A stretch of DNA of 60,000 bases from Bolinopsis microptera (Eukaryota; Ctenophora; Tentaculata; Lobata; Bolinopsidae): the NCBI RefSeq assembly GCF_026151205.1, contig NC_087076.1, positions 21,324,828-21,384,827 of the forward strand, in the 5' to 3' direction. Position numbers and translations under genes: made by a program. Numbering within the stretch: the stretch's first letter is position 1; each line of letters begins with the position of its first letter. Shown piece after piece: positions 10,396 through 54,419 of the stretch. Below the pieces are notes generated by a model. The model had not been told where the DNA came from. It did not search any database and saw nothing but the letters and a program-made list of their open reading frames with translations.

Positions 10396-13300
10396 ATGAA
10401 TTGTAAAGAAACGTGTCAGTCAGACAAACTACTGAATCTTGCCTCAAAGGGACGTGCAATGCTACTTCAGGTAAAATGTAGCTTATTTACAGTCTTTTCT
10501 CTCTAGTTTAGCGTTTTAAACGCCAAAATGAGAAAATGGCAATTTTTGCCCTCCTATCGTATTTCCACCTTGAATATTTTTCTCGCTCGAACGTGAGGGT
10601 CTCTCTTGTTTCTTCAAACATGTTTCAAAATCATAGATGCTTTTTTAAAGTAATACGACCAGAGTAAAGGGTTAGGTGATCGGCTTTCTCCCCATATGTT
10701 GCATAAATCAATTTTTAGTACGCTGATATCTTTGTATCTTTACACCCAAACTGGAACTCCCATTTTCTTATCTCACAAGATCGGTTGTATTCTATATCTA
10801 AGATAACTAAACTCACAACTGATTCAAGGCAGCAGTCGATGTTGGAGACTTGGAGAGGGAGGCCAGGGCCAGGGTGGCAGTGAAACTTTGCGGGCTTTCT
10901 AAACGTTTCTTATACTTAACACGTTTTTGCTAGTAGTTGACGTTTTTGCTAGTAGTTGACGACGTTGTATTCTAACTTTCTAAGATACGCTTTAAATAAT
11001 TAATTACAATAAACACTGAACTTTATCGAGTTCCAAAGTTCTTACCTAAGGGCCTCAACTAGATTTCACATACGATTCTATTTTAACTGCGACACCCCTA
11101 GGAAGCCCTGTGTAAAGGAGAAGGCTGCACGAGCTGCTCTAACAAGAATAAAGACACCTTGCTTATCTTAGCTGCTAAACATGGACACCTCAACGTAGTG
11201 CGGACCTTACTCGACCACTTTGGGAGTGAGTATTTTAGGGACTTAGTTGATAAATCCTGTTTTATTTCTACATAATCGGATCGGACTTTATTTGAACATA
11301 CATTAATTGGACGCTGGAGGCCCTAGCGTTCATTTTTAATGTCTGTTCAAATAAAGCCCGACAAGGTAGTTAAATTAAATACATTAAATGGATGCCTTTT
11401 AGCGTTAATTTTAATGTCCGTTCACGCAATGCCCAGTCAAATTTAAACGTCCGATAAGGTATGTCAACGAAACGTAACTAACCAATCTTTTCTGAATTCT
11501 GTCAGGTTACTCACTAATGTTTACTGTCAAGTGACTCATTAATGTTAACTGTCAGGTGACTCACTAATGTTAACTGTTAGGTGACTCACTAATGTTAACT
11601 GTCAAGTGACTCACTAATGTTAACTGTCAGGTGACTCACTAATGTTAACTGTCAAGTTACTCACTAATGTTCACTGTCAGGCGACTCACTAATGTTAACT
11701 ATCAGGTAACTCACTAATGTTAACTGTCAGGTGACGCACTAATGTTAACTGTCAGGTGACTCACTAATGTTGACTGTCAGGTGACTCACTAATGTTTACT
11801 GTCAAGTGACTCATTAATGTTCACTGTCAGGTTACTCACCAATGTTTACTATCAGGTTACTCACTATTGTTAACCCCCTATCAAGATTCTAAAAAAAGTG
11901 CGATGAGATTGGATTTTGACACTAGAAGTGCGATTTTCACGAAATGTACTCCCCACCCCCCCCCCCCCCTCCAGCCTGCAAGATTTCTTGCCCCACAAAT
12001 TATTTTCTATTTAAAAAGATTTCGCGAGTCCCTTTGTAAGCGAAAAGTATGTCACTGTTATTGGATCCATAAATAACGAAAAATTTACGTGCGTATTTTC
12101 ATGAATTGTATTATGTTACATATTGTAATTATGGTAAGCCTCACGTAGCACGATGGTTGAGGGCGCGCTCGTCAAGCAGTTGACTCTGGTTCGAGTCTCG
12201 TCGGCGGTCATTCTTTTGGCAATTATTAATTATTTTACTAAAATTATCATCAGAGCACCTTGTAATATACGTTATCCGATAGATTATACTGTTCGTACTT
12301 CATCTAGAGAACTAAGAGACTGAGAAGACCGGCATTTAAGGATTTGTCCGGGGAAGGCCTCGTTCACACTGGAACATGTCAAATTATTGTAAACGGAGTT
12401 ATCTGGTAATGTTTGTTTTGTTTATGGCTAGAATTTAGAATGGAATCAATGTGATGAGGATCCAGAGTTAATTACCTGCTAGGATTAATAAGTCAGTTCT
12501 CCAGTTGAAGAGACCCTTTCTCAAACTTTTAATGAAGAAATATTCACTATGCCTATGGCAGTATCAAGTATATTCTGAGAAAGAATATAGCCAGGAATAG
12601 TACCTCCTTTAATGGTAACCATGGTAACTATAGTAACCACTGTGAATCTTGATCTTATAACAACTAGTATCCTTTAAGACTTAGACAGTACAGTGAATAA
12701 ACACGCTGAAAAGCGATGAAAATGCAAGCGCGCGACCGAATATGTAGTGCTGAAAGAGGGTGCCGAAATCTCGCGGAGAATCTCACGATATTGTGAGCCT
12801 AGCTATGAGATTTAAACGAAACTCGCAAAAATCTGGCAAAAATCTCGCGCGCGTTACGTCGAAGTTTTCACGCTATAAACAAGTGATAAAATACACGTTA
12901 AGAGTACATATAAAATACATGTTAAGTTCCTAATTCCCTCAACTTTTAAGTTAAACTTTTTCTGTTTCCTCATTTATTTACAAATTTTGTGCGATGAGTC
13001 CGGCTCGCAATCTCGCATAAATCTTGAGCTGGGTTGTTAACTGTCAAGTTACTCACTAATGTTAACTGTCAGGTGACTCACTAATGTTAACTGTTAGGTG
13101 ACTCACTAATGTTAACTGTCAGGTGACTCACTAATGTTTACTGTCAGGTGACTCACTAATGTTAACTGTCAAGTTACTCATTAATGTTCACTGTCAGGCG
13201 ACTCACTAATGTTAACTGTCAGGTGACTCACTAATGTTAACTGTCAAGTGACGCACTAATGTTTACTGTCAGGTGACTTACTAATGTTTACTGTCAAGTG

Positions 13301-16300
13301 ACTCACTAATGTTTACTGTCAAGTGACTCACTAATGTTCACTGTCAAGTGACTCACTAATGTTTACTGTCAAGTGACTCACTAATGTTCACTGTAAAGTG
13401 ACTCACTAATGTTAACTGTCAGGTTACTCACTAATGTTTACTGTCATGTCAAGTGACTCACTAATGTTCACTGTAAAGTGACTCACTAATGTTAACTGTC
13501 AGGTGACTCACTAATGTTAACTGTTAGGTGACTCACTAATGTTAACTATCAGGTGACTCACTAATGTTAACTGTCAGGTGACTCACTAATGTTCACTGTA
13601 AAGTGACTCACTAATGTTAACTGTCAGGTGACTCACTAATGTTAACTGTTAGGTGACTCACTAATGTTAACTGTTAGGTGACTCACTAATGTTAACTATC
13701 AGGTGACTCACTAATGTTAACTGTCAGGTGACTCACTAATGTTCACTGTCAAGTTACTCACTAATGTTAACTGTCAGGTGACTCACTAATGTTAACTGTT
13801 AGGTGACTCATTAATGTTAACTGTCAGGTGACTCACTAATGTTTACTGTCAGGTGACTCACTAATGTTAACTGTCAAGTGACGCACTAATGTTTACTGTC
13901 AGGTGACTCACTAATGTTTACTGTCAAGTGACTCACTAATGTTTACTGTCAGGTGACTCACTAATGTTTACTGTCAGGTGACTCAGTAATGTTCACTATC
14001 AAGTTACTCACTAATGTTTACTGTCAGGTGACGCACTAATGTTAACTGTCAGGTGACGCACTAATGTTTACTGTCAAGTGACTCACTAATGTTTACTGTC
14101 AAGTGACTCACTAATGTTCACTGTAAAGTGACTCACTAATGTTAACTGTCAAGTTACTCACTAACGTTAACTGTCAGGTGACTCACTAATGTTAACTGTC
14201 AAGTGACGCACTAATGTTTACTGTCAAGTGACTCACAAATGTTTACTGTCAAGTGACTCACTAATGTTTACTATCAGGTGACTCACTAATGTTTATTGAC
14301 AAGTGACTCATTAATGTTTACTGTCAAGTGACTCACTAATGTTAACTGTCAAGTTACTCACTAATGTTAACTGTCAGGTGACTCACTAATGTTAACTGTT
14401 AGGTGACTCACTAATGTTAACTGTCAGGTGACTCACTAATGTTTACTGTCAGGTGACTCACTAATGTTAACTGTCAAGTGACGCACTAATGTTTACTGTC
14501 AAGTGACGCACTAATGTTTACTGTCAGGTGACTCACTAATGTTTACTGTCAGGTGACTCACTAATGTTAACTGTCAAGTTACTCACTAATGTTTACTGTC
14601 AGGTGACTCACTAATGTTTACTGTCAGGTGACTCACTAATGTTAACTATCAGGTGACTCACTAATGTTAACTGTCAGGTAACTCACTAATGTTCACTGTC
14701 AAGTGACTCACTAATGTTCACTGTAAAGTGACTCACTAATGTTAACTGTCAGGTGACTCACTAATGTTAACTGTCAGGTGACTCACTAATGTTAACTGTT
14801 AGGTGACTCACTAATGTTAACTATCAGGTGACTCACTAATGTTAACTGTCAGGTAACTCACTAATGTTCACTGTCAAGTGACTCACTAATGTTTACTGTC
14901 AAGTGACTCACTAATGTTCACTGTAAAGTGACTCACTAATGTTCACTGTAAAGTGACTCACTAATGTTAACTGTCAGGTGACTCACTAATGTTAACTGTC
15001 AGGTGACTCACTAATGTTAACTGTTAGGTGACTCACTAATGTTAACTATCAGGTGACTCACTAATGTTAACTGTCAGGTAACTCACTAATGTTCACTGTC
15101 AAGTGACTCACTAATGTTTACTGTCAAGTGACTCACTAATGTTCACTGTAAAGTGACTCACTAATGTTAACTGTCAGGTTACTCACTAATGTTTACTGTC
15201 ATGTCAAGTGACTCACTAATGTTAACTGTCAGGTGACTCACTAATGTTAACTGTTAGGTGACTCACTAATGTTAACTATCAGGTGACTCACTAATGTTAA
15301 CTGTCAGGTAACTCACTAATGTTCACTGTCAAGTGACTCACTAATGTTCACTGTAAAGTGACTCACTAATGTTAACTGTCAGGTGACTCACTAATGTTAA
15401 CTGTCAGGTGACTCACTAATGTTAACTGTTAGGTGACTCACTAATGTTAACTATCAGGTGACTCACTAATGTTAACTTTCAGGTAACTCACTAATGTTCA
15501 CTGTCAAGTGACTCACTAATGTTTACTGTCAAGTGACTCACTAATGTTCACTGTAAAGTGACTCACTAATGTTAACTGTCAAGTTACTCACTAATGTTAA
15601 CTGTCAGGTGACTCACTAATGTTAACTGTTAGGTGACTCACTAATGTTAACTGTCAGGTGACTCACTAATGTTTACTGTCAGGTGACTCACTAATGTTAA
15701 CTGTCAAGTGACTCACTAATGTTAACTGTCAAGTGACGCACTAATGTTTACTGTCAGGTGACTCACTAATTTTACTGTCAAGTGACTCACTAATGTTTAC
15801 TGTCAAGTGACTCACTAATGTTTACTGTCAGGTGACTCACTAATGTTTACTGTCAAGTGACTCACTAATGTTTACTGTCAAGTGACTCACTAATGTTTAC
15901 TGTCAAGTGACTCACTAATGTTTACTGTCAGGTGACTCACTAATGTTTACTGTCAAGTGACTCACTAATGTTTACTGTCAGGTGACTTACTAATGTTTAC
16001 TGTCAAGTGACTCACTAATGTTAACTGTCAGGTGACTCACTAATGTTTACTGTCAAGTGACTCACTAATGTTAACTGCCAGGTGACTCACTAATGTTTAC
16101 TGTCAGGTGACTCACTAATGTTAACTGTCAAGTGACGCACTAATGTTTACTGTCAGGTGACTCACTAATGTTTACTGTCAAGTGACTCACTAATGTTTAC
16201 TGTCAAGTGACTCACTAATGTTTACTGTCAAGTGACTCACTAATGTTTACTGTCAGGTGACTCACTAATGTTTACTGTCAAGTGACTCACTAATGATAAC

Positions 16301-19300
16301 TGTCAGGTGACGCACTAATGTTTACTGTTAGGTGACTCACTAATGTTAACTGTCAGGTGACTCACTAATGTTAACTGTCAGGTGACTCACTAATGTTTAC
16401 TGTCAAGTGACTCACTAATGTTTACTGTCAAGTGACTCACTAATGTTTACTGTCAGGTGACTCACTAATGTTTACTGTCAAGTGACTCACTAATGATAAC
16501 TGTCAGGTGACTCACTAATGTTTACTGTTAGGTGACTCACTAATGTTTACTGTTAGGTGACTCACTAATGTTTACTGTCAGGTGACTCACTAATGTTTAC
16601 TGTCAAGTGACTCAGTAATGTTAACTGTCAAGTGACTCACTAATGTTAACTGTCAGGTGACTCACTAATGTTTACTGTCAGGTGACTATATGGAGTGCTT
16701 TAACAAGACAGGTAAAAGAGCTCTACACGAAGCAGCACAGAACAAACGTCTTGATATCACGCAGTTTCTCATAAGCAAAGGTAGGCACTTTTTAGAAATT
16801 ACATTTACTTCGAAAATTAGGTTCATGGCGATTAGCACTTGATTGTAACAAGATTGGCTACTTTTTGGTTGTGATCACAAAACTTTAAACGTAATCAGAC
16901 CCGACTCGGAGATGGCTGTCGGGATACATTGGGAGCTTTCTATCTTTATTATTGCATCATTTATTAGAGCCCTCCTTGTGGAAGGCTTACCAAAAGATGT
17001 GAGGTCTGGTCTCCGGAGAGAACCAGTTACACATTGGAACTTAATCTTACCTCAAATTATTTGTTATATAGTAGTGTTGAAAGTATTAAAACTGCCGATT
17101 GAGTGGTGCTAGGCCTATTTGTATGTCAACCTAGCTCTTTCCTTGCGCGGATCCATGGAAATTATCAGAATCTTTCCTTGCTAGCCTCCAGAGCGGCAAG
17201 TAATGAGACACGTGAAGGTCACAAGATAGCACGGCTCAACGCCAAAGTGGTCACATGACCATCTCATGTTGCCGATAATGGCCTTTTCCATTAGCCACCT
17301 TAAAAGGGATGTAATTGGACGTGTTTGAGATGCAGCTCGATGCTGCCCATACTTCATCAGAGTGCTCTGGATATTGTCGACAGCATTTCGTTCCTTTCCT
17401 TTGAGAACAGAAAAGGGGCCTTTTTCCCCTTAAAAAAGTGTCACCCGAGTCTCAAGAATAGAAAGGATCCGTTGGTTGACAAATAATTTGCAAAAGGATA
17501 CGGCACCGGGAATTCCCAGGCGGTCACCCATCCAAGTACTAACCCGGCCTGCAGTTGCTTAACTTCCCAGATCGAACGAGATGGGGTGTATTCAACCGAG
17601 TATGGCCGTATCCGACAGTCTTGAAATTACGGCCGCTACATTTACTTCGGTCAGTCGGTTAAAGTACGCGAAAATTAGGTTCATGGCGATTAGCACTTGA
17701 TTGTAACAAGATTGGCTACTTTTTGGTTGTGATCACAAAACTTTAAACGTAATCAGACCCGACTCGGAGATGGCTGTCGGGATACATTGGGAGCTTTCTA
17801 TCTTTATTATTGCATCGTTTATTAGAGCCCTCCTTGTGGAAGGCTTACCAAAAGATGTGAGGTCTGGTCTCCGGAGAGAACCAGTTACACATTGGAACTT
17901 AATCTTACCTCAAATTATTTGTTATATAGTAGTGTTGAAAGTATTAAAACTGCCGATTGAGTGGTGCTAGGCCTATTTGTATGTCAACCTAGCTCTTTCC
18001 TTGCACGGATCCATGGAAATTCTCAGAATCTTTCCTTGCTAGCCTCCAGAGCGGCAAGTAATGAGACACGTGAAGGTCACAAGATAGCACGGCTCAACGC
18101 CAAAGTGGTCACATGACCATCTCATGTTGCCCATAATGCCTTTTCCATTAGCCACCTTAAAAGGGATGTAATTGGACGTGTTTGAGATGCAGCTCGATGC
18201 TGCCCATACTTCATCAGAGTGCTCTAGAGATTGTCGACAGCATTTCGTTCCTTTCCTTTGAGGACAGAAACGGGGCCTTTTTTCCCAAAAAAGTGTCACC
18301 CGAGTCTCAAGAATAGAAAGGATCCGTTGGTTGACAAATAATTTGAAAAAGGATACGGCACCGGGAATTCCCAGGCGGTCACCCATCCAAGTACTAACCC
18401 GGCCTGCAGTTGCTTAACTTCCCAGATCGAACGAGATGGGGTGTATTCAACCGAGTATGGCCGTATCCGACAGTCTTGAAATTACGGCCGCTACATTTAC
18501 TAGGTCAGTCGGTTAAAAAACGCTAAAATCAGGTTCATGGCGATTAGCACTTGATTGTAACAAGATTGGCTACTTTTTGCATTGGTTGTGATCACAAAAC
18601 TTTAAACGTAATCAGACCCGACTCGGACGATGGCTGTCGGGATACATTGGGAGCTTTCTATCTTTATTATTGCATCGTTTATTAGAGCCCTCCTTGTGGA
18701 AGGCTTACCAAAAGATGTGAGGTCTGGTCTCCGGAGAGAACCAGTTACACATTGGAACTTAATCTTACCTCAAATTATTTGTTATATAGTAGTGTTGAAA
18801 GTATTAAAACTGCCGATTGAGTGGTGCTAGGCCTATTTGTATGTCAACCTAGCTCTTTCCTTGCACGGATCCATGGAAATTCTCAGAATCTTTCCTTGCT
18901 AGCCTCCAGAGCGGCAAGTAATGAGACACGTGAAGGTCACAAGATAGCACGGCTCAACGCCAAAGTGGTCACATGACCATCTCATGTTGCCGATAATGCC
19001 TTTTCCATTAGCCACCTTAAAAGGGATGTAATTGGACGTGTTTGAGATGCAGCTCGATGCTGCCCATACTTCATCAGAGTGCTCTAGAGATTGTCGACAG
19101 CATTTCGTTCCTTTCCTTTGAGGACAGAAACGGGGCCTTTTTTCCCAAAAAAAGTGTCACCCGAGTCTCAAGAATAGAAAGGATCCGTTGGTTGACAAAT
19201 AATTTGCAAAAGGATACGGCACCGGGAATTCCCAGGCGGTCACCCATCCAAGTACTAACCCGGCCTGCAGTTGCTTAACTTCCCAGATCGAACGAGATGG

Positions 19301-22300
19301 GGTGTATTCAACCGAGTATGGCCGTATCCGACAGTCTTGAAATTACCGCCGCTACATTTACTTGGGTCAGTCGGTTAAAGTACGCGAAAATTAGGTTCAT
19401 GGCGATTAGCACTTGATTGTAACAAGATTGGCTACTTTTTGGTTGTGATCACAAAACTTTAAAAGTAATAAGACTCGACTCGGAGTTGGCTGTCGGGATA
19501 CATTGGGAGCTTTCTATCTTTATTATTGCATCGTTTATTAGAGCCCTCCTTGTGGAAGGCTTACCAAAAGATGTGAGGTCTGGTCTCCGGAGAGAACCAG
19601 TTACACATTGGAACTTAATCTTACCTCAAATTATTTGTTATATAGTAGTGTTGAAAGTATTAAAACTGCCGATTGAGTGGTGCTAGGCCTATTTGTATGT
19701 CAACCTAGCTCTTTCCTTGTGCGGATCCATGGAAATTATCAGAATCTTTCCTTGCTAGCCTCCAGAGCGGCAAGTAATGAGACACGTGAAGGTCACAAGA
19801 TAGCACGGCTCAACGCCAAAGTGGTCACATGACCATCTCATGTTGCCGATAATGGCTTTTCCATTAGCCACCTTAAAAGGGATGTAATTGGACGTGTTTG
19901 AGATGCAGCTCGATGCTGCCCATACTTCATCAGAGTGCTCTAGAGATTGTCGACAGCATTTCGTTCCTTTCCTTTGAGAACAGAAAAGGGGCCTTTTTCC
20001 CCTTAAAAAAGTGTCACCCGAGTCTCAAGAATAGAAAGGATCCGTTGGTTGACAAATAATTTGCAAAAGGATACGGCACCGGGAATTCCCAGGCGGTCAC
20101 CCATCCAAGTACTAACCCGGCCTGCAGTTGCTTAACTTCCCAGATCGAACGAGATGGGGTGTATTCAACCGAGTATGGCCGTATCCAACAGTCTTGAAAT
20201 TACGGCCGCTACATTTACTTGGTCAGTCGGTTAAAGTACGCTAAAATCAGGTTCGTGGCGATTAGCACTTGATTGTAACAAGATTGGCTACTTTTTGCAT
20301 TGGTTGTGATCACAAAACTTTAAACGTAATCAGACCCGACTCGGAGATGGCTGTCGGGATACATTGGGAGCTTTCTATCTTTATTATTGCATCGTTTATT
20401 AGAGCCCTCCTTGTGGAAGGCTTACCAAAAGATGTGAGGTCTGGTCTCCGGAGAGAACCAGTTACACATTGGAACTTAATCTTACCTCAAATTATTTGTT
20501 ATATAGTAGTGTTGAAAGTATTAAAACTGCCGATTGAGTGGTGCTAGGCCTATTTGTATGTCAACCTAGCTCTTTCCTTGCGCGGATCCATGGAAATTCT
20601 CAGAATCTTTCCTTGCTAGCCTCCAGAGCGGCAAGTAATGAGACACGTGAAGGTCACAAGATAGCACGGCTCAACGCCAAAGTGGTCACATGACCATCTC
20701 ATGTTGCCGATAATGGCTTTTCCATTAGCCACCTTAAAAGGGATGTAATTGGACGTGTTTGAGATGCAGCTCGATGCTGCCCATACTTCATCAGAGTGCT
20801 CTGGAGATTGTCGACAGCATTTCGTTCCTTTCCTTTGAGGACAGAAACGGGGCCTTTTTTCCCCAAAAAAAGTGTCACCCGAGTCTCAAGAATAGAAAGG
20901 ATCCGTTGGTTGACAAATAATTTGCAAAAGGATACGGCACCGGGAATTCCCAGGCGGTCACCCATCCAAGTACTAACCCGGCCTGCAGTTGCTTAACTTC
21001 CCAGATCGAACGAGATGGGGTGTATTCAACCGAGTATGGCCGTATCCGACAGTCTTGAAATTACGGCCGCTACATTTACTAGGTCAGTCGGTTAAAGTAC
21101 GCGAAAATCAGGTTCATGGCGATTAGCACTTGATTGTAACAAGATTGGCTACTTTTTGGTTGTGATCACAAAACTTTAAACGTAATCAGACCCGACTCGG
21201 AGATGGCTGTCGGGATACATTGGGAGCTTTCTATCTTTATTATTGCATCGTTTATTAGAGCCCTCCTTGTGGAAGGCTTACCAAAAGATGTGAGGTCTGG
21301 TCTCCGGAGAGAACCAGTTACACATTGGAACTTAATCTTACCTCAAATTATTTGTTATATAGTAGTGTTGAAAGTATTAAAACTGCCGATTGAGTGGTGC
21401 TAGGCCTATTTGTATGTCAACCTAGCTCTTTCCTTGCGCGGATCCATGGAAATTCTCAGAATCTTTCCTTGCTAGCCTCCAGAGCGGCAAGTAATGAGAC
21501 ACGTGAAGGTCACAAGATAGCACGGCTCAACGCCAAAGTAGTCACATGACCATCTAATGTTGCTGATAATGGCTTTTCCATTAGCCACCTTAAAAGGGAT
21601 GTTATTGGACGTGTTTGAGATGCAGCTCGATGCTGCCCTTACTTCATCAGAGTGCTCTGGATATTGTCGACAGCATTTCGTTCCTTTCCTTTGAGAACAG
21701 AAAAGGGGCCTTTTTCCCCTTAAAAAAGTGTCACCCGAGTCTCAAGAATAGAAAGGATCCGTTGGTTGACAAATAATTTGCAAAAGGATACGGCACCGGG
21801 AATTCCCAGGCGGTCACCCATCCAAGTACTAACCCGGCCTGCAGTTGCTTAACTTCCCAGATCGAACGAGATGGGGTGTATTCAACCGAGTATGGCCGTA
21901 TCCGACAGTCTTGAAATTACGGCCGCTACATTTACTTGGTCAGTCGGTTAAAATACGCTAAAATCAGGTTCATGGCGATTAGCACTTGATTGTAACAAGA
22001 TTGGGGGGGGGGGGGGGGGGGGGGGGGCCAACCATATTAAAGTATATTAAAGTATATCCCCGGGTCAAAATCGGAAAAAATCCTACATTTTAATATACTT
22101 TAATATACCAACAATTAGAAGATTTATATTCTTCGTTAAGATTTACATGATGAACTATATTTTTCACTCAGATTCGCAAGATAAGCCTGTTTTAGGACTA
22201 GTACATGAATTTCCATCCAGATTGGTCAAAAATTGGCTGAGCTATGAGCTTTAAAAAATATGCCCATATTTGGGCATACGCTTTTGCCCAAATTCGCTTT

Positions 22301-25300
22301 TGCCCAAATTCGATAAAATTTCAATATTTTTTAATGAGACTAACTCTATGTGAAAGATATAACTCAGTGTTTGTTGAATATAGTGGATACTAAGTAAAAA
22401 GACTTCCATGAACAAAATTGGGAAAATTGCACATAATATCTCTGTTCGGAATACTAGCCAAAATGACTTCATTAAAATTGAAATAACTCCATCAGTTTTC
22501 AATATTTTTTCAAGAACTTTTTGGAATCGATTAAGAATTGCATTTCAAGCTTATTTTGGGTAACAATTTTCGATGTAGGCCTCCAAGGATAGGGATATAT
22601 TAAAGTATATTGTAGGTATATTAAAGTATATTAAAGTATATCCCCGGGTCAAAATCGGGAAAAATCCTACATTTTAATATACTTTAATATGGTTGGCCCC
22701 CCCCCCCCCCCCCCCCCCAGATTGGCTACTTTTTGGTTGTGATCACAAAACTTTAAAAGTAATAAGACTCGACTCGGAGTTGGCTGTCGTGATACATTGG
22801 GAGCTTTCTATCTTTATTATTGCATCGTTTATTAGAGCCCTCCTTGTGGAAGGCTTACCAAAAGATGTGAGGTCTGGTCTCCGGAGAGAACCAGTTACAC
22901 ATTGGAACTTAATCTTACCTCAAATTATTTGTTATATAGTAGTGTTGAAAGTATTAAAACTGCCGATTGAGTGGTGCTAGGCCTATTTGTTTGTCAACCT
23001 AGCTCTTTCCTTGCACAGATCCATGGAAATTCTCAGAATCTTTCCTTGCTAGCCTCCAGAGCGGCAAGTAATGAGACACGTGAAGGTCACAAGATAGCAC
23101 GGCTCAACGCCAAAGTAGTCACATGACCATCTAATGTTGCTGATAATGGCTTTTCCATTAGCCACCTTAAAAGGGATGTTATTGGACGTGTTTGAGATGC
23201 AGCTCGATGCTGCCCTTACTTCATCAGAGTGCTCTGGATATTGTCGACAGCATTTCGTTCCTTTCCTTTGAGAACAGAAAAGGGGCCTTTTTCCCCTTAA
23301 AAAAGTGTCACCCGAGTCTCAAGAATAGAAAGGATCCGTTGGTTGACAAATAATTTGCAAAAGGATACGGCACCGGGAATTCCCAGGCGGTCACCCATCC
23401 AAGTACTAACCCGGCCTGCAGTTGCTTAACTTCCCAGATCGAACGAGATGGGGTGTATTCAACCGAGTATGGCCGTATCCGACAGTCTTGAAATTACGGC
23501 CGCTACATTTACTTCGGTCAGTCGGTTAAAGTACGCGAAAATTAGGTTCATGGCGATTAGCACTTGATTGTAACAAGATTGGCTACTTTTTGGTTGTGAT
23601 CACAAAACTTTAAAACGTAATCAGACCCGACTCGGAGATGGCTGTCGGGATACATTGGGAGCTTTCTATCTTTATTATTGCATCGTTTATTAGAGCCCTC
23701 CTTGTGGAAGGCTTACCAAAAGATGTGAGGTCTGGTCTCCGGAGAGAACCAGTTACACATTGGAACTTAATCTTACCTCAAATTATTTGTTATATAGTAG
23801 TGTTGAAAGTATTAAAACTGCCGATTGAGTGGTGCTAGGCCTATTTGTATGTCAACCTAGCTCTTTCCTTGTGCGGATCCTTTGAAATTCTCAGAATCTT
23901 TCCTTGCTAGCCTCCAGAGCGGCAAGTAATGAGACACGTGAAGGTCACAAGATAGCACGGCTCAACGCCAAAGTGGTCACATGACCATCTCATGTTGCCG
24001 ATAATGGCTTTTCCATTAGCCACCTTAAAAGGGATGTAATTGGACGTGTTTGAGATGCAGCTCGATGCTGCCCATACTTCATCTGATTGCTCTAGAGACT
24101 GTCCATCAGTTCGGTCCTTTCCTTTGAGAACAGAAAAGGGGCCTTTTTCCCCTTAAAAAAGTGTCACCCGAGTCTCAAGAATAGAAAGGATCCGTTGGTT
24201 GACAAATAATTTGCAAAAGGATACGGCACCGGGAATTCCCAGGCGGTCACCCATCCAAGTACTAACCCGGCCTGCAGTTGCTTAACTTCCCAGATCGAAC
24301 GAGATGGGGTGTATTCAACCGAGTATGGCCGTATCCGACAGTCTTGAAATTATGGCCGCTACATTTACTTCGGTCAGTCGGTTAAAGTACGCGAAAATTA
24401 GGTTCATGGCGATTAGCACTTGATTGTAACAAGATTGGCTACTTTTTGGTTGTGATCACAAAACTTTAAAAGTAATAAGACTCGACTCGGAGATGGCTGT
24501 CGGGATACATTGGGAGCTTTCTATCTTTATTATTGCATCGTTTATTAGAGCCCTCCTTGTGGAAGGCTTACCAAAAGATGTGAGGTCTGGTCTCCGGAGA
24601 GAACCAGTTACACATTGGAACTTAATCTTACCTCAAATTATTTGTTATATAGTAGTGTTGAAAGTATTAAAACTGCCGATTGAGTGGTGCTAGGCCTATT
24701 TGTATGTCAACCTAGCTCTTTCCTTGCGCGGATCCATGGAAATTATCAGAATCTTTCCTTGCTAGCCTCCAGAGCGGCAAGTAATGAGACACGTGAAGGT
24801 CACAAGATAGCACGGCTCAACGCCAAAGTGGTCACATGACCATCTCATGTTGCCGATAATGGCTTTTCCATTAGCCACCTTAAAAGGGATGTAATTGGAC
24901 GTGTTTGAGATGCAGCTCGATGCTGCCCATACTTCATCAGAGTGCTCTAGAGATTGTCGACAGCATTTCGTTCCTTTCCTTTGAGGACAGAAACGGGGCC
25001 TTTTTTCCCAAAAAAGTGTCACCCGAGTCTCAAGAATAGAAAGGATCCGTTGGTTGACAAATAATTTGCAAAAGGATACGGCACCGGGAATTCCCAGGCG
25101 GTCACCCATCCAAGTACTAACCCGGCCTGCAGTTGCTTAACTTCCCAGATCGAACGAGATGGGGTGTATTCAACCGAGTATGGCCGTATCCGACAGTCTT
25201 GAAATTACGGCCGCTACATTTACTTGGTCAGTCGGTTAAAATACGCTAAAATCAGGTTCATGGCGATTAGCACTTGATTGTAACAAGATTGGCTACTTTT

Positions 25301-28300
25301 TGGTTGTGATCACAAAACTTTAAAAGTAATAAGACTCGACTCGGAGATGGCTGTCGGGATACATTGGGAGCTTTCTATCTTTATTATTGCATCGTTTATT
25401 AGAGCCCTCCTTGTGGAAGGCTTACCAAAAGATGTGAGGTCTGGTCTCCGGAGAGAACCAGTTACACATTGGAACTTAATCTTACCTCAAATTATTTGTT
25501 ATATAGTAGTGTTGAAAGTATTAAAACTGCCGATTGAGTGGTGCTAGGCCTATTTGTATGTCAACCTAGCTCTTTCCTTGCACGGATCCATGGAAATTCT
25601 CAGAATCTTTCCTTGCTAGCCTCCAGAGCGGCAAGTAATGAGACACGTGAAGGTCACAAGATAGCACGGCTCAACGCCAAAGTAGTCACATGACCATCTC
25701 ATGTTGCCGATAATGGCTTTTCCATTAGCCACCTTAAAAGGGATGTAATTGGACGTGTTTGAGATGCAGCTCGATGCTGCCCATACTTCATCAGAGTGCT
25801 CTAGAGATTGTCGACAGCATTTCGTTCCTTTCCTTTGAGGACAGAAACGGGGCCTTTTTTCCCAAAAAAGTGTCACCCGAGTCTCAAGAATAGAAAGGAT
25901 CCGTTGGTTGACAAATAATTTGCAAAAGGATACGGCACCGGGAATTCCCAGGCGGTCACCCATCCAAGTACTAACCCGGCCTGCAGTTGCTTAACTTCCC
26001 AGATCGAACGAGATGGGGTGTATTCAACCGAGTATGGCCGTATCCGACAGTCTTGAAATTACGGCCGCTACATTTACTTGGTCAGTCGGTTAAAAAACGC
26101 TAAAATCAGGTTCATGGCGATTAGCACTTGATTGTAACAAGATTGGCTACTTTTTGGTTGTGATCACAAAACTTTAAACGTAATCAGACCCGACTCGGAG
26201 ATGGCTGTCGGGATACATTGGGAGCTTTCTATCTTTATTATTGCATCGTTTATTAGAGCCCTCCTTGTGGAAGGCTTACCAAAAGATGTGAGGTCTGGTC
26301 TCCGGAGAGAACCAGTTACACATTGGAACTTAATCTTACCTCAAATTATTTGTTATATAGTAGTGTTGAAAGTATTAAAACTGCCGATTGAGTGGTGCTA
26401 GGCCTATTTGTATGTCAACCTAGCTCTTTCCTTGCGCGGATCCATGGAAATTCTCAGAATCTTTCCTTGCTAGCCTCCAGAGCGGCAAGTAATGAGACAC
26501 GTGAAGGTCACAAGATAGCACGGCTCAACGCCAAAGTGGTCACATGACCATCTCATGTTGCCGATAATGGCTTTTCCATTAGCCACCTTAAAAGGGATGT
26601 AATTGGACGTGTTTGAGATGCAGCTCGATGCTGCCCATACTTCATCAGAGTGCTCTGGAGATTGTCGACAGCATTTCGTTCCTTTCCTTTGAGGACAGAA
26701 ACGGGGCCTTTTTTCCCAAAAAAGTGTCACCCGAGTCTCAAGAATAGAAAGGATCCGTTGGTTGACAAATAATTTGAAAAAGGATACGGCACCGGGAATT
26801 CCCAGGCGGTCACCCATCCAAGTACTAACCCGGCCTGCAGTTGCTTAACTTCCCAGATCGAACGAGATGGGGTGTATTCAACCGAGTATGGCCGTATCCA
26901 ACAGTCTTGAAATTACGGCCGCTACATTTACTAGGTCAGTCGGTTAAAAAACGCTAAAATCAGGTTCATGGCGATTAGCACTTGATTGTAACAAGATTGG
27001 CTACTTTTTGCATTGGTTGTGATCACAAAACTTTAAACGTAATCAGACCCGACTCGGACATGGCTGTCTGGATACATTGGGAGCTTTCTATCTTTATTAT
27101 TGTATCGTTTATTAGAGCCCTCCTTGTGGAAGGCTTACCAAAAGATGTGAGGTCTGGTCTCCGGAGAGAACCAGTTACACATTGGAACTTAATCTTACCT
27201 CAAATTATTTGTTATATAGTAGTGTTGAAAGTATTCAAACTGCCGATTGAGTGGTGCTAGGCCTATTTTTATGTCAACCTAGCTCTTTCCTTGCGCGGAT
27301 CCATGGAAATTCTCAGAATCTTTCCTTGCTAGCCTCCAGAGCGGCAAGTAATGAGACACGTGAAGGTCACAAGATAGCACGGATCAACGCCAAAGTGGTC
27401 ACATGACCATCTCATGTTGCCGATAATGGCTTTTCCATTAGCCACCTTAAAAGGGATGTAATTGGACGTGTTTGAGATGCAGCTTGATGCTGCCCATACT
27501 TCATCTGATTGCTCTCTAGAGATTGTCGACAGCATTTCGTTCCTTTCCTTTGAGAACAGAAAAGTGGCCTTTTTCCCTTTAAAAAAGTGTCACCCGAGTC
27601 TCAATAATAGAAAGGATCCGTTGGTTGACAAATAATTTGCAAAAGGATACTGCACCGGGAATTTCCATATTATTTTATTAGAATTGCTATGTTTTAAGGA
27701 AATTCAGCTTGATTTTATTACAGGAGCTTCAGTAGACGCATTAAAACAAGGTGACTGGACCCCCCTCATGCTTGCAGCTGAAAAACAGAACTTGGAGATT
27801 GTAAGTTTTGCTAATGAACTACCGAAATTATAATTTTAAACACTCTAAATTATCTCAATGTTTTCATGTCATTTTGTTGGTCTTGACTCGTCGGCGCATA
27901 ACGTACCCTAATTTTTGCACCGACAAATCTCCAGCAGTAGAGTCCCGGACCCGTCCGCGTCTTTTTGATCAGTCCCCTGACACTTAAAAATTAGGGGGGG
28001 GGGGGGGGGGGGGGGGGGTGGGGGCAACCATATTAAAGTATATTAAAGTATATCCCCGGGTCAAAATCGGGAAAAATCCTACATGTTAATTTACTTTAAT
28101 ATGGTTGCCCCCCCCCCCCCCCCCCCCCTCAAATTAATCTTAATTTCTAAAGAATTAGTTGGGCCTAATTGATTTGACTTTTTTTAAAAACCAAAACGTT
28201 TGTTTCCTCAATTCAGTTTATCACTTCCTAACCATCAGATAAAGCTGCTGACTGGCTTTTGCTTTTAGCTGTTGCCTAGTAACCGTTACCTAGTAACCGT

Positions 28301-42013: not shown

Positions 42014-44483
42014 CTCATGTTTTGTGTCCTACCCTATTTTCTGAAGACGGACAAAATCGCACGGACAAAATCTTGATAAGAATACAGTGTAAACATGCCT
42101 TTGTGGTTATAAGTTTGTTCCGGAGTTGGTAGAGCTGTAGAGGAAGCGAACTAGTATTATTTAATGAAGAATGGCAAGGTTTACACTTTGCAAAATCAGT
42201 AAAGATACGAAAATTGTCTCGACAGGTTCAACCATCCAAAGTAGCAGATGTGACTAAGAAAAAAAGAAACCCATACCACTGCACCGCATCATATAGCGTG
42301 TAATAGTTGTAGAGCCTCAATAGTCGTAGAGCCTCAATAGGAATTACATACATTTACATTATCATGATTATGACTATCATATAGTTTATCGTCAGTCTTC
42401 CTCCTCCTCAGTCCTCTTTCTCCTCCTACACCTAAGTTCTCCTCCTACTCCTAAGTCCTCCTCCTCTTTTTCCTCCTTTTCCTCCTCCTTCTCCTCCTAC
42501 TCCTAAGTCCTCATCCTCAGTCCTCCTCCTCATGAGTCCTCCCCCAGTCCTCCTTCTCCTCCCCCTCATCCTCAGTCCTCCTCCTCATCATCCTCCTCAT
42601 TCCTCCTCCTCCTCAGTCCTCCCCAAGTCCTCCTCTTCCTCAGTCCTCCCCCAGTCCTCCTTCTCCTCCTCATCCTCAGTCCTCCTCCTCAGTCCTCGTC
42701 CTTCTCCTTCTTATCAGTCCTCCTCCTCAGTCTTCCTCCTCGCTCTCGTCCTCCTCATCCTTAGTCCTCCCCGTCCTCAGTCCTCCTCCTTCTCCTCCTT
42801 CTCGTCTTCCTCATTTTCCTCCTCCTCACCAATCCTGCTCCTCTTCCTCAGTCCTCCCTCTCCTCTTCAGTCCTCCTCTTCAGTCCTCCTAAGTCCTCCC
42901 CAGTCCTCTTCTTTCTCCTCAGTCTTCCTCCTTCTCCTCCTCCTACTCAGTCCTCCTCTTCTTCCTCCTCCTTCTCCTCTTCCTCCTCCTAATCAGTCCT
43001 CCTCCTCAGTCGTCCTCGTCCTTAGTCCTCGTCCTCATCCTCATCGTCTTTAGTCCTCATCCGCCTAGTCCTCGTCCATAGTCCTCGTCCATAGTCCTCG
43101 TCCTCATCCTCCTAGTCCTCGTCCTGGTCCTCCTCAGTCTTCCTCCTCTGTCCTCCTCAGTCCTCCTTCTCCTCAGTCCTCCTCCTCAGTCCTCCTTCTC
43201 CTCCTCAGTCCTCCCCCAGGGGGGGGGGGGGGGGGGGGGGGCGGGGGGCTCATGTTTTGTGTCCTACCCTATTTTCTGAAGACGGACAAAATCGCACGGA
43301 CAAAATCTTGATAAGAATACAGTGTAAACATGCCTTTGTGGTTATAAGTTTGTTCCGGAGTTGGTAGAGCTGTAGAGGAAGCGAACTAGTATTATTTAAT
43401 GAAGAATGGCAAGGTTTACACTTTGCAAAATCAGTAAAGATACGAAAATTGTCTCGACAGGTTCAACCATCCAAAGTAGCAGATGTGACTAAGAAAAAAA
43501 GAAACCCATACCACTGCACCGCATCATATAGCGTGTAATAGTTGTAGAGCCTCAATAGTCGTAGAGCCTCAATAGGAATTACATACATTTACATTATCAT
43601 GATTATGACTATCATATAGTTTATCGTCAGTCTTCCTCCTCCTCAGTCCTCTTTCTCCTCCTACACCTAAGTTCTCCTCCTACTCCTAAGTCCTCCTCCT
43701 CTTTTTCCTCCTTTTCCTCCTCCTTCTCCTCCTACTCCTAAGTCCTCATCCTCAGTCCTCCTCCTCATGAGTCCTCCCCCAGTCCTCCTTCTCCTCCCCC
43801 CTCATCCTCAGTCCTCCTCCTCATCATCCTCCTCATTCCTCCTCCTCCTCAGTCCTCCCCAAGTCCTCCTCTTCCTCAGTCCTCCCCCAGTCCTCCTTCT
43901 CCTCCTCATCCTCAGTCCTCCTCCTCAGTCCTCGTCCTTCTCCTTCTTATCAGTCCTCCTCCTCAGTCTTCCTCCTCGCTCTCGTCCTCCTCATCCTTAG
44001 TCCTCCCCGTCCTCAGTCCTCCTCCTTCTCCTCCTTCTCGTCTTCCTCGTTTTCCTCCTCCTCACCAATCCTGCTCCTCTTCCTCAGTCCTCCCTCTCCT
44101 CTTCAGTCCTCCTCTTCAGTCCTCCTAAGTCCTCCCCCAGTCCTCTTCTTTCTCCTCAGTCTTCCTCCTTCTCCTCCTCCTACTCAGTCCTCCTCATCTT
44201 CCTCCTCCTTCTCCTCTTCCTCCTCCTAATCAGTCCTCCTCCTCAGTCGTCCTCGTCCTTAGTCCTCGTCCTCATCCTCATCGTCTTTAGTCCTCATCCG
44301 CCTAGTCCTCGTCCATAGTCCTCGTCCTCATCCTCCTAGTCCTCGTCCTGGTCCTCCTCAGTCTTCCTCCTCTGTCCTCCTCAGTCCTCCTTCTCCTCCT
44401 CAGTCCTCCTTCTCCTCCTCAGTCCTCCCCCAGTCTTCCTTCTCCTCCTCATCATCCTCAGTCCTCTTCCTCCTCCTCCTTCT
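42014..44483 (+). repeat. 1,235-bp local tandem duplication beginning at a G-tract
   Basis: The segment starting CTCATGTTTTGTGTCC at 42014 is repeated at 43249 with only a handful of differences. The junction is CCTCCCCCAG run directly into a new G-tract (43219-43248), so the breakpoint lies at the homopolymer. It is present only in unit B. Confidence 0.9.
42397..43218 (+). repeat. CT-rich minisatellite (TCCTCCTCAG family), first copy
   Basis: Irregular tandem units of TCCTCCTCAG, TCCTCGTCC and TCCTTCTCC make one strand almost pure pyrimidine. Open frames through it (Ser/Pro/Leu-rich) are compositional. Confidence 0.9.
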
Positions 44484-44692
44484 CCTTCTTATCAGTCCTC
44501 CTCCTCAGTCCTCGTCCTCGCTCCTCTTCCGCAGTTCTCCCTCTCCTCTGCCGTCCTCCTCATCCCCAGTCCTCCTCCTCCTCGTCAGTCCTCCTCGGTC
44601 CTTCTCCTCCTCGTCAGTCCTCCCGGCCCCAGTCCTCCTCCTCCTCCTCAGTCCTCTTCTTCTTCAGTCCTCCTCCTCGCTCCTCCTCATCA
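43629..44692 (+). repeat. CT-rich minisatellite, second copy
   Basis: The same array as 42397-43218, carried along by the 1,235-bp duplication and extending about 290 bp further. Confidence 0.9.
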
Positions 44693-53287: not shown

Positions 53288-54419
53288 TCGTCACTCTTCC
53301 TCCTCCTCAGTCCTCCTTCTCCTCCTACTCCTAAGTTCTCCTACTCCTAAATCCTCCTCCTCCTCCTCCTTCTCCTCCTTTTCCTCCTCCTTCTCCTCCC
53401 TACTCCCTAAGTCCTCCCTCTCCCTCTCAGTCCTCCCCCGTCCTCCTTATCCTCCCCCCCATCCTCAGTCCTCCTCCTCATCATCCTCCTCATTCCTCCT
53501 CTTCTCAGTCTCCCCAAGTCTCCTCTTCCTCAGTCCTCCCCCAGTCCTCCTTCTCTTCCTCATCCTCAGTCCTCGTCCTTCTCCTTCTTATCAGTCCTCC
53601 TCCCTCAGTCTTCCTCCTCTTCCTCGTGTCGTCCTCCTCCTCAGTCCCTCCTCGTCCTTAGTCCTCCCCGTCTCAGTCCTCCTCCTTCTCGTCTTCTCAT
53701 TTTCCTCCTCTCACCAATCCTGCTCCTCTTCTCAGTCCTCCCTTCCTCTTCAGTCATCCTGAGTCCTCCCCAGTCCTCTTCTTTACCTCAGTCTTCCTCC
53801 TTCTCTCTCCTACTCAATTCTCCTCCTCATCTTCCTCCCTCCTTCTCCTCTTCCTCCTCCCTAATCAGTCCTCCTCCTCAGTCGTCCTCGTCCTTAGTCC
53901 TCGTCCTCATCCTCATCGTCTTTAGTCCTCATCCGCCCAGTCCTCGTCCTTAGTCCTCGGACCATCCTCCTAGTTCTCGTCCTGGTCCTCCTCAGTCTTC
54001 CTCCTCTGTCCTCCTCAGTCCTCCTTCTCCTCAGTCCTCCGTCCTCCTCCTCAGTCCTCCTTCTCCTCCTCTTCCTCCTCCTCCTTCTCCCTCTTATCAG
54101 TCCTCCTCCTCAGTCCTCGTCCTCGCTCTCGTCCTCGTCCTCAGTCCTCCTCGTCCTTAGCGCTCGTGTCCTCTTAGTCCTCCTCCTCCCGTCCTCAGGC
54201 CTCCTCTTCCTCCTCCTCCTCTCATCAATCCTGTCCTCTTCCGCAGTCCTCCCTCTCCTCTTCAGTCCTCCTCATCCCCAGTCCTCCTCCTCCTCGTCAG
54301 CCCTCCTCGGTCCTTCTCCTCCTCGTCAGTCCTCCCGGCCCCAGTCCTCCCCTCCTCCTCAGTCTTCCTCCTTCTTCTCCTCAGTCCTCTTCTTCTTCAG
54401 TCCTCCTCCTCCTCCTCAT
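53288..54419 (+). repeat. CT-rich minisatellite, unit C copy
   Basis: This is a diverged version of the array at 42397-44692, with many 1-nt differences and no internal duplication. Confidence 0.9.

Follow-up and report, generated by a model that had tools for sequence, protein, structure and literature searches.

What RNA is encoded between the genes of a 5S rRNA array in the ctenophore Bolinopsis microptera, a member of a lineage possibly sister to all other animals? The original prediction was that a spliced-leader (SL) RNA gene is embedded in every unit of this array. Three lines of evidence support this claim: the alternation of the two genes, the homology of the leader to one already known, and the occurrence of leaders lacking the splice donor on retroelements. 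With a probability of roughly 0.96, we read the array as one of 5S rRNA genes together with genes for a ~127-nt trans-spliced SL RNA, whose 43-nt leader would be joined to other RNAs.

The 5S rRNA array in the window

Within the window (the whole stretch of 60,000 nucleotides that was analysed), 12 copies of the SL RNA gene, here called SL1, alternate with 11 5S rRNA genes, all on the minus strand. The 5S genes match Rfam family RF00001 on the same strand as SL at 109.7 bits each (cut-off 38), and their sequences are mutually identical. Successive 5S genes are spaced 854-861 bp apart, which agrees closely with the predicted 855-860-bp unit except for a single step of 1577 bp. This long unit carries an insert of ~720 bp with poly-G/poly-C ends, beginning at ~22003. 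Each of the 11 5S genes starts 517-520 nt from the start of the SL gene that follows, and each tandem unit holds both a 5S gene and an SL gene. The features are as follows.

16967..17093, minus strand, SL1 RNA gene copy 1, delimited at 127 nt (from leader exon through donor, UCCG hairpin and AUCUUUUGG to terminal hairpin)
17051..17093, minus strand, leader exon AGTTTTAATACTTTCAACACTACTATATAACAAATAATTTGAG of copy 1, 43 nt
from 17050, minus strand, donor GUAAG of copy 1
16990-16998, minus strand, Sm-like AUCUUUUGG of copy 1
17138..17143, minus strand, AGGAAA promoter core of copy 1, at -50 when the leader A is numbered +1
16940..16950, minus strand, AATAAAGATAG, element resembling a 3' box, downstream of copy 1 (putative function)
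17825..17951, minus strand, SL1 RNA gene copy 2
18685..18811, minus strand, SL1 RNA gene copy 3
19541..19667, minus strand, SL1 RNA gene copy 4
20402..20528, minus strand, SL1 RNA gene copy 5
21258..21384, minus strand, SL1 RNA gene copy 6
22835..22961, minus strand, SL1 RNA gene copy 7
23693..23819, minus strand, SL1 RNA gene copy 8
24548..24674, minus strand, SL1 RNA gene copy 9
25402..25528, minus strand, SL1 RNA gene copy 10
26256..26382, minus strand, SL1 RNA gene copy 11
27115..27241, minus strand, SL1 RNA gene copy 12, single-base difference at leader position 6
17495..17613, minus strand, 5S rRNA gene 1 (Rfam RF00001, 109.7 bits)
18350..18468, minus strand, 5S rRNA gene 2 (Rfam)
19211..19329, minus strand, 5S rRNA gene 3 (Rfam)
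20068..20186, minus strand, 5S rRNA gene 4 (Rfam)
20929..21047, minus strand, 5S rRNA gene 5 (Rfam)
21785..21903, minus strand, 5S rRNA gene 6 (Rfam)
23362..23480, minus strand, 5S rRNA gene 7 (Rfam)
24218..24336, minus strand, 5S rRNA gene 8 (Rfam)
25073..25191, minus strand, 5S rRNA gene 9 (Rfam)
25927..26045, minus strand, 5S rRNA gene 10 (Rfam)
26781..26899, minus strand, 5S rRNA gene 11 (Rfam)

Structure and promoter of the SL1 RNA gene

All 12 copies in the window carry, on the minus strand, the exon tail followed directly by a GU donor, a UCCG-capped hairpin and the Sm-like AUCUUUUGG, the arrangement of 5′ exon and donor in a short RNA gene that is expected of an animal SL RNA. Eleven copies share one 127-nt RNA sequence, from which copy 12 differs by one base in the 5′ part of the leader. 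The core that had been called identical in all 12 copies is indeed so, since this substitution falls outside it. The proposed dimensions are revised: the RNA is ~127 nt (16967..17093 in copy 1) rather than 122 nt, and the leader is 43 nt (AGTTTT...TTTGAG) rather than ~37 nt, with its start at 17093, ~6 nt further upstream than ~17087.

The 5′ end of the leader is delimited by 24 dispersed copies, whose homology to the SL1 gene extends to -12 (before CAACAC) in 21 and to -13 in 12, and is at background upstream of -13. The alignment with the leader of Hormiphora californensis starts at the same A (17093). None of 2000 shuffles aligns equally well, and the two leaders share the AATTTGAG end. Thus, the leader belongs with a known ctenophore leader. 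A chaetognath origin is rejected, as three Spadella-type leaders from that group (PMC2481426 Table 3) do not match. A search for COX1, which could have placed the animal, found no such gene, and a text search for the leader strings found none in paper texts.

Downstream of the donor, the sequence and its predicted fold show an Sm-type site flanked by hairpins, with one hairpin at the 3′ end. The site reads ATCTTTTGG, which is not an exact match to AT{4,6}G, given as the default of the SLIDR program (PMC7986045). Folding of the SL1 RNA, a check that had been proposed, yields z -2.45, and 3 of 200 shuffles fold equally well. No stem pair carries a double change within the SL1 genes. Comparison with a second SL type, SL2, reveals one compensatory U-A to A-U change and the loss of another pair, and one such compensatory pair is reached also by 209 of 500 shuffles. 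An Rfam search at the SL gene gives no family above cut-off.

The candidate promoter core AGGAAA lies at -50 in 44 of 44 SL1 genes compared and at -51 in 13 SL2 genes (of 15 copies, two damaged ones in a single locus being dropped). The core of the U1/U2 element, taken from 17 of 20 U1/U2 matches after exclusion of two weak U2 and one U1, falls within 3 nt of the SL1 AGGAAA position. In position, then, the cores of the SL and U1/U2 genes lie close together. Scored with a 22-nt matrix built from the U1/U2 element, the SL1 promoters do not exceed shuffles.

Additional SL RNA loci

The same SL/5S order recurs at two further loci on C13 (L005 and L006), where the distance from the 5S start to the next SL is 508-531 nt in eight of nine places and 3008 nt in the ninth. 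L005 has eight SL genes with only four 5S genes. On C3, a diverged SL1 array with a 591-bp unit conserves the RNA and several upstream blocks, including the -50 block, and retains the 3′-box-like AATAAAGATAG as AATAAAGATA. The UCCG cap predicted for the hairpin holds for all 12 copies in the window, but the loop is UCAG in the C3 array and in a single copy on C2, and UUUC in the second SL type. SL2 forms a tandem array on C1; it has the donor region and terminal stem of SL1, and its leader is different.

No 5S gene is present in the part of the C3 array that was read (L009, 13 SL1 genes), and none of the 47 genome-wide matches listed falls at the C3 or C1 arrays; that search scored 47 of 7194 candidates, and its counts are lower bounds. 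5S-SL linkage is not universal across the SL genes of this genome. Genes for 5S rRNA also occur inside foldback elements.

Donor-bearing loci are greatly outnumbered by copies of the leader. The SL1 leader end occurs at 1749 places genome-wide and with a splice donor at 73, and because these values come from two separate pattern searches, the donor-less share is known by difference. The SL2 leader end occurs at 1129 places. The donor pattern gave 237 matches at ≤2 mismatches versus 485 for a reversed control, and for this reason only the exact matches listed were used; 81 of the 100 matches listed are SL2 places on C1, a number therefore to be read as at least 81.

Leader copies on mobile elements

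We sampled 60 dispersed places (40 SL1, 20 SL2), all on C1 and drawn from perfect matches, which biases mismatch counts towards clean leaders. The copies head retroelements and other bodies, and all bodies that could be identified are mobile elements; no host-gene target of the leader was traced among the copies sampled. At non-array loci, GTAAG follows the leader in 0 of 80 instances and the intron half is attached in none. The leader joined to other sequences without its intron half, as expected for an animal SL RNA, is seen here in genomic copies rather than in RNA.

The bodies form 36 BLAST clusters, which include fragments and probably related bodies, and four of these clusters hold both leaders. 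All 17 genomic matches examined in a LINE family comprise 15 with SL1, one with SL2, and one without the leader and body start. The corresponding values for all 14 in a PHD/RT family are seven, six and one. Within each of these two families, SL1 and SL2 are attached at the same junction. Six copies have bodies listed as 100% identical over 207 nt: two carry SL1 and four carry SL2, at one junction. Two leaders swapped at the same junction on the same bodies constitute genome-only evidence for trans-splicing of the leaders onto other RNAs.

Leader stacking is rare, with one relic among 90 instances, and no unspliced outron copy is found among the 17 LINE-family and 14 PHD/RT-family places. A simple search finds convincing target-site duplications in two of 24 leader instances. 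Short units of the leader plus ~107 nt (L016, L023) have such duplications, and none is found at two longer elements, including a LINE copy traced into its 3′ portion. One short element contains hammerhead-like letters, and for its copies L017 and L034 no ribozyme family is listed at E up to 1.

Interpretation and alternative explanations

In the preferred reading, one strand would yield two products, 5S rRNA, presumably made by Pol III, and the SL RNA, presumably made by Pol II from an snRNA-type promoter. We infer these polymerases, together with a cap and Sm binding for the SL RNA, and likewise the use of the leader on ordinary host mRNAs. The spliceosome would cut the ~127-nt RNA after AATTTGAG at GU, and the 43-nt leader would then be joined to 3′ splice sites of other RNAs.

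Might the gene instead encode a SmY-like RNA or other Sm-class snRNA, one that donates no leader and sits in the 5S spacer by chance? The Sm-like site and terminal hairpin are those of many snRNAs, and the intron half has a weak likeness to SmY (RF01844; 23.1 and 26.0 bits, under the gathering cut-off of 39). However, the 5′ exon occurs at many places joined to other sequences, ending precisely where the GU donor would begin, and is homologous to a ctenophore leader proven in transcripts, so that the leader-body junctions already contradict this idea and render it extremely improbable. SINEs with snRNA-derived heads exist, and the dispersed leaders could similarly be SINE-like families whose heads derive from SL genes and are inherited as DNA, in which case they would say nothing about trans-splicing. 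The short units with target-site duplications and the lack of unspliced copies in the two element families are compatible with such an origin. Yet four clusters hold both leaders, and the identical bodies are divided between SL1 and SL2 at the same junction. Moreover, the bodies are many and unrelated, some with reverse transcriptase, and none of 80 instances retains the SL RNA intron half. We consider a SINE-like origin very unlikely.

A further proposal, compatible with the SL RNA reading, is that the 5S-SL linkage is a functionless accident of array history, for example through 5S genes moving in mobile elements. The foldback elements provide a precedent, and the unequal gene numbers at L005 and the lack of 5S in L009 fit it as well; against it stand the recurrence of the order and near-constant spacing on C13 and a similar linkage in a nematode and copepods, as described in the cited parts of PMC7986045 and PMC4664967. 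An accident seems possible, at somewhat less than even odds.

Returning to the trans-spliced leader, we consider it an even bet that the 5′ ends of LINEs and short retroelements are not permanently theirs, and that these elements would receive a fresh SL1 or SL2 in each round through the AG that ends the old leader. If this AG serves as the acceptor for the new leader, then the leader would be replaced at a fixed junction without stacking.

Implications

Trans-splicing in ctenophores and 5S-SL linkage in other organisms are already known. The expectation that the array reveals an animal that trans-splices is supported, but the array is not the first sign of this because reports of SLs in ctenophores go back to 2010, as cited in PMC8527503. 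In the literature searched, we found neither a ctenophore example of 5S-SL linkage nor a description of leaders exchanged on mobile elements. The present data provide the anatomy of SL RNA genes for a ctenophore, with two leader types and a linkage to 5S like that of a nematode and of copepods. They also offer a test that needs no RNA: when two leaders alternate on one retroelement body, genomic DNA becomes an argument for trans-splicing, and it reveals the exact 3′ end of the leader and, nearly, its 5′ end. A warning follows from the 73 donor-bearing places versus 1749 leader ends, in that counts of leader copies overstate the number of SL genes. If the renewal of leaders proves true, then many unrelated mobile elements would have in common a 5′ end, the leader, that can be renewed, and the genomic leader copies reported in ctenophores would mostly represent such insertions and not SL genes.

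Comparison with known systems

Among the closest known systems is that of H. californensis, in which the leader is reported on 56% of Iso-Seq reads, with 718 genomic copies there and 491 in Mnemiopsis (PMC8527503, in part). The B. microptera leader resembles it in homology, AG start, AATTTGAG end and abundance of genomic copies. The Hormiphora copies are called spliced-leader loci in the portion of that account used here, which mentions neither linkage to 5S nor a second leader, and does not describe the anatomy of SL RNA genes. SL RNA genes are linked to 5S in Caenorhabditis briggsae and calanoid copepods, according to the parts cited of PMC7986045 and PMC4664967; the linkage is alike, but the animals and leaders are different, and here the genome has, beside its 5S-linked arrays, an SL1 array where the search for 5S found none. 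In dinoflagellates, as far as the cited part of PMC6050394 describes, DinoSL-tagged retrogenes likewise record RNAs that were reverse-transcribed into the genome with a leader at their 5′ end, and multiple leaders occur in ~20% of full-length transcripts. Unlike that system, there is one relic in 90 here, two leaders interchange, and the identified bodies are mobile elements. Finally, leaders are present on 30.9% and 29.7% of transposable-element Iso-Seq reads from two Hydra strains (PMC12220107, in part). Transposon RNAs are shown there to receive leaders in RNA, whereas in B. microptera the leader stands in the genomic copies themselves.

The SL RNA and 5S rRNA array

As the original prediction held, a spliced-leader (SL) RNA gene sits in every unit of the 5S rRNA array, on the same strand as the 5S gene. 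The array and the other repeats of the window lie as follows:

16967-27241, minus strand: 12 SL RNA genes alternating with 11 5S rRNA genes
13035-16687: 25-bp tandem repeat, ~146 copies, directly adjoining the SL/5S array
~16694-16782: ankyrin-repeat-like stretch, judged by eye, adjoining the 25-bp tandem repeat
22003 to about 22730: insert of ~720 bp in one 5S/SL unit, bounded by poly-G and poly-C, with inner inverted repeats CCAACCATATTAAAG and AGATTGG on its flanks
27994, 41665, 41983, 43219 and 49363: further G-runs
42392-44688 and 53294-54418: long, imperfect TCC-rich arrays
42302, 43537 and 53202: 17-bp repeat AATAGTCGTAGAGCCTC, just ahead of the TCC-rich arrays

The 11 5S genes of the array have the same sequence and score 109.7 bits each (Rfam). 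The SL start lies 517-520 nt from the preceding 5S start in 11 of 11 cases, and the 5S-to-5S step is 854-861 bp, with a single exception of 1577 bp in the unit that carries the insert. The RNA of this type, SL1, consists of a 43-nt leader, a GUAAG donor, a UCCG-capped hairpin, AUCUUUUGG and a terminal hairpin, downstream of which sits AATAAAGATAG. Eleven window copies are identical, and copy 12 has one substitution, in the leader. Folding of the RNA, suggested alongside the original prediction, gives a structure that beats most dinucleotide shuffles (z -2.45; 3/200 equally good).

The leader had been put at ~37 nt, which is too short. We place its extent at about 43 nt, from 17093 to 17051 in copy 1, because of two lines of sequence comparison. 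Specifically, homology to the SL gene among 24 dispersed copies is retained in 21/24 at position -12 before CAACAC and in 12/24 at -13, and falls to background farther out. In addition, the SL1 leader is homologous to that of the ctenophore Hormiphora californensis, which is present on 56% of Iso-Seq reads in that species (PMC8527503); the alignment begins at the same A and reaches the end of the leader, and 0/2000 shuffles are as good. Three chaetognath leaders were also compared, and none matches the SL1 leader.

SL1 genes elsewhere in the genome

Genome-wide counts refer to a 264.65-Mb assembly with 232 contigs. With up to 3 mismatches allowed, the 29-nt end of the SL1 leader has 1749 matches, against 0 for the reversed control. 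The leader end plus donor region occurs at 75 places (control 0), and removal of two non-donors leaves 73. Of these, contig C3 has 37, the window array 12 and C13 22; C1 and C2 have one apiece. The C13 loci keep a looser 5S linkage, with 4 5S and 8 SL genes in one fetched stretch (L005) and 6 and 7 in another (L006). The C3 array is built of 591-bp units, and the part of it examined (L009) holds 13 SL1 genes with no 5S found. None of the 47 5S matches from the genome search, a lower bound, falls at the C3 SL1 array or at the C1 array of a second type, SL2.

Other 5S and snRNA genes were observed along the way. L010 (153-5232), L012 and L013, from C3, C11 and C130, contain foldback-type elements whose arms, long terminal inverted repeats, each carry a 5S gene. 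The inverted repeats of L010 are 2.4 kb at 91%, and both arm copies in L012 match the window 5S at 100% across 122-123 nt; the foldback element is a mobile element with intact-looking 5S genes. Another inverted 5S pair lies at a C3 locus (L011). At C1:19147400-19150300 (L042), a U2 gene lies ~2 kb from a solitary, diverged SL1 gene on the opposite strand.

A second SL type and the upstream elements

The donor-region pattern revealed SL2 on C1, with at least 76 exact places between 14.49 and 14.55 Mb, mostly spaced by 434 bp; the matches listed also include four exact places at 17.14 Mb and a single one at 6.08 Mb. Only exact matches were counted, because a tolerance of up to 2 mismatches yielded 237 matches but 485 for the reversed control. 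The usual SL2 leader, from 15 copies read, is 46 nt, AGTTTTAAACTAATTACAACACTACAAATCTATTACATTTATTGAG, and its 30-nt end occurs at 1129 places genome-wide (control 0). Downstream of the leader follow the same donor region as in SL1, a hairpin, CUCUUUUGG and the same terminal stem. Relative to SL1, one pair of the hairpin is lost, and another has changed in a compensatory way from U-A to A-U.

U1 and U2 genes (17 used of 20 matches) have TTCAAACACAAGGAAATATTTT-like elements beginning at -63 to -59, and GTCAAACGCAAGGAAAGATCTT lies upstream of SL2 genes. The core AGGAAA is at -51 in 13 SL2 copies, two damaged copies being left out, and is kept at -50 in 44/44 SL1 genes. With the full U1/U2-element matrix, SL1 promoters score no higher than shuffles. 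The likeliest reading is that the SL genes have snRNA-type promoters, an assignment firmer for SL2 than for SL1.

Swapped leaders on retroelements

The sample comprised 60 dispersed places on C1, 40 with an SL1 and 20 with an SL2 leader, together with the other copies of two element families. GTAAG follows the leader in 0/80 instances. The sequences joined downstream ("bodies") form 36 BLAST clusters, some probably related, and both leaders occur in four. Two short elements (leader plus ~107 nt) have target-site duplications; none was convincing in the other 22 instances tested. In two stretches (L022, L029), short leader-bearing elements stand head-to-head as inverted pairs.

Two families have retrotransposon bodies. 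The first, a LINE family, encodes both an endonuclease and a reverse transcriptase in ORF2, and its ORF1 is PHD-like (under the Pfam cut-off); its 17 genomic matches comprise 15 with SL1, one with SL2 and one without leader and first part of the body. In the second, PHD fingers accompany a reverse transcriptase that narrowly exceeds the cut-off; its 14 matches comprise seven with SL1, six with SL2 and one that lacks both the leader and the start of the body. Across the whole 207 nt, 11 of the 14 match at 99-100%, and the first six listed at 100% include two SL1 and four SL2 copies.

Trans-splicing followed by retrotransposition predicts such a pattern, in which the same body carries either of two leaders at a single junction, and each leader ends exactly where its donor begins. 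Neither family's matches include a copy that retains an unspliced outron. In the LINE copy L064, an additional AG separates the leader from the body, which the simple trans-splicing model leaves unexplained; it possibly marks an alternative acceptor.

LINE copies whose 5′ body sequences diverge by as much as 16% still have near-perfect leaders. The simplest account, to which we would give even odds, is renewal: the AG with which the old leader ends would act as the next acceptor, and therefore the new leader would take the old one's place. A second leader relic within 50 nt was seen in 1/90 genomic instances, a rearranged copy, in a sample biased to perfect leaders, whereas in dinoflagellates ~20% of full-length transcripts carry multiple leaders (PMC6050394).

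Comparison with known systems

The original observation is correct and its spliced-leader interpretation is supported, with amendments to leader length and to the novelty of trans-splicing in ctenophores. SL trans-splicing is already known in that group, spliced leaders of ctenophores having been reported since 2010 (cited in PMC8527503). Linkage of 5S and SL genes is known from a nematode and copepods (PMC7986045, PMC4664967). Among titles and abstract openings of the best-ranked papers in a literature search, we found no report of this linkage in ctenophores, or of swapped leaders on ctenophore retroelements. The SL gene of the window is a known kind of gene; the elements that swap leaders are less expected. 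Leader copies number 718 in the Hormiphora genome and 491 in that of Mnemiopsis (PMC8527503), and the Bolinopsis result predicts that most of these are insertions rather than SL genes.
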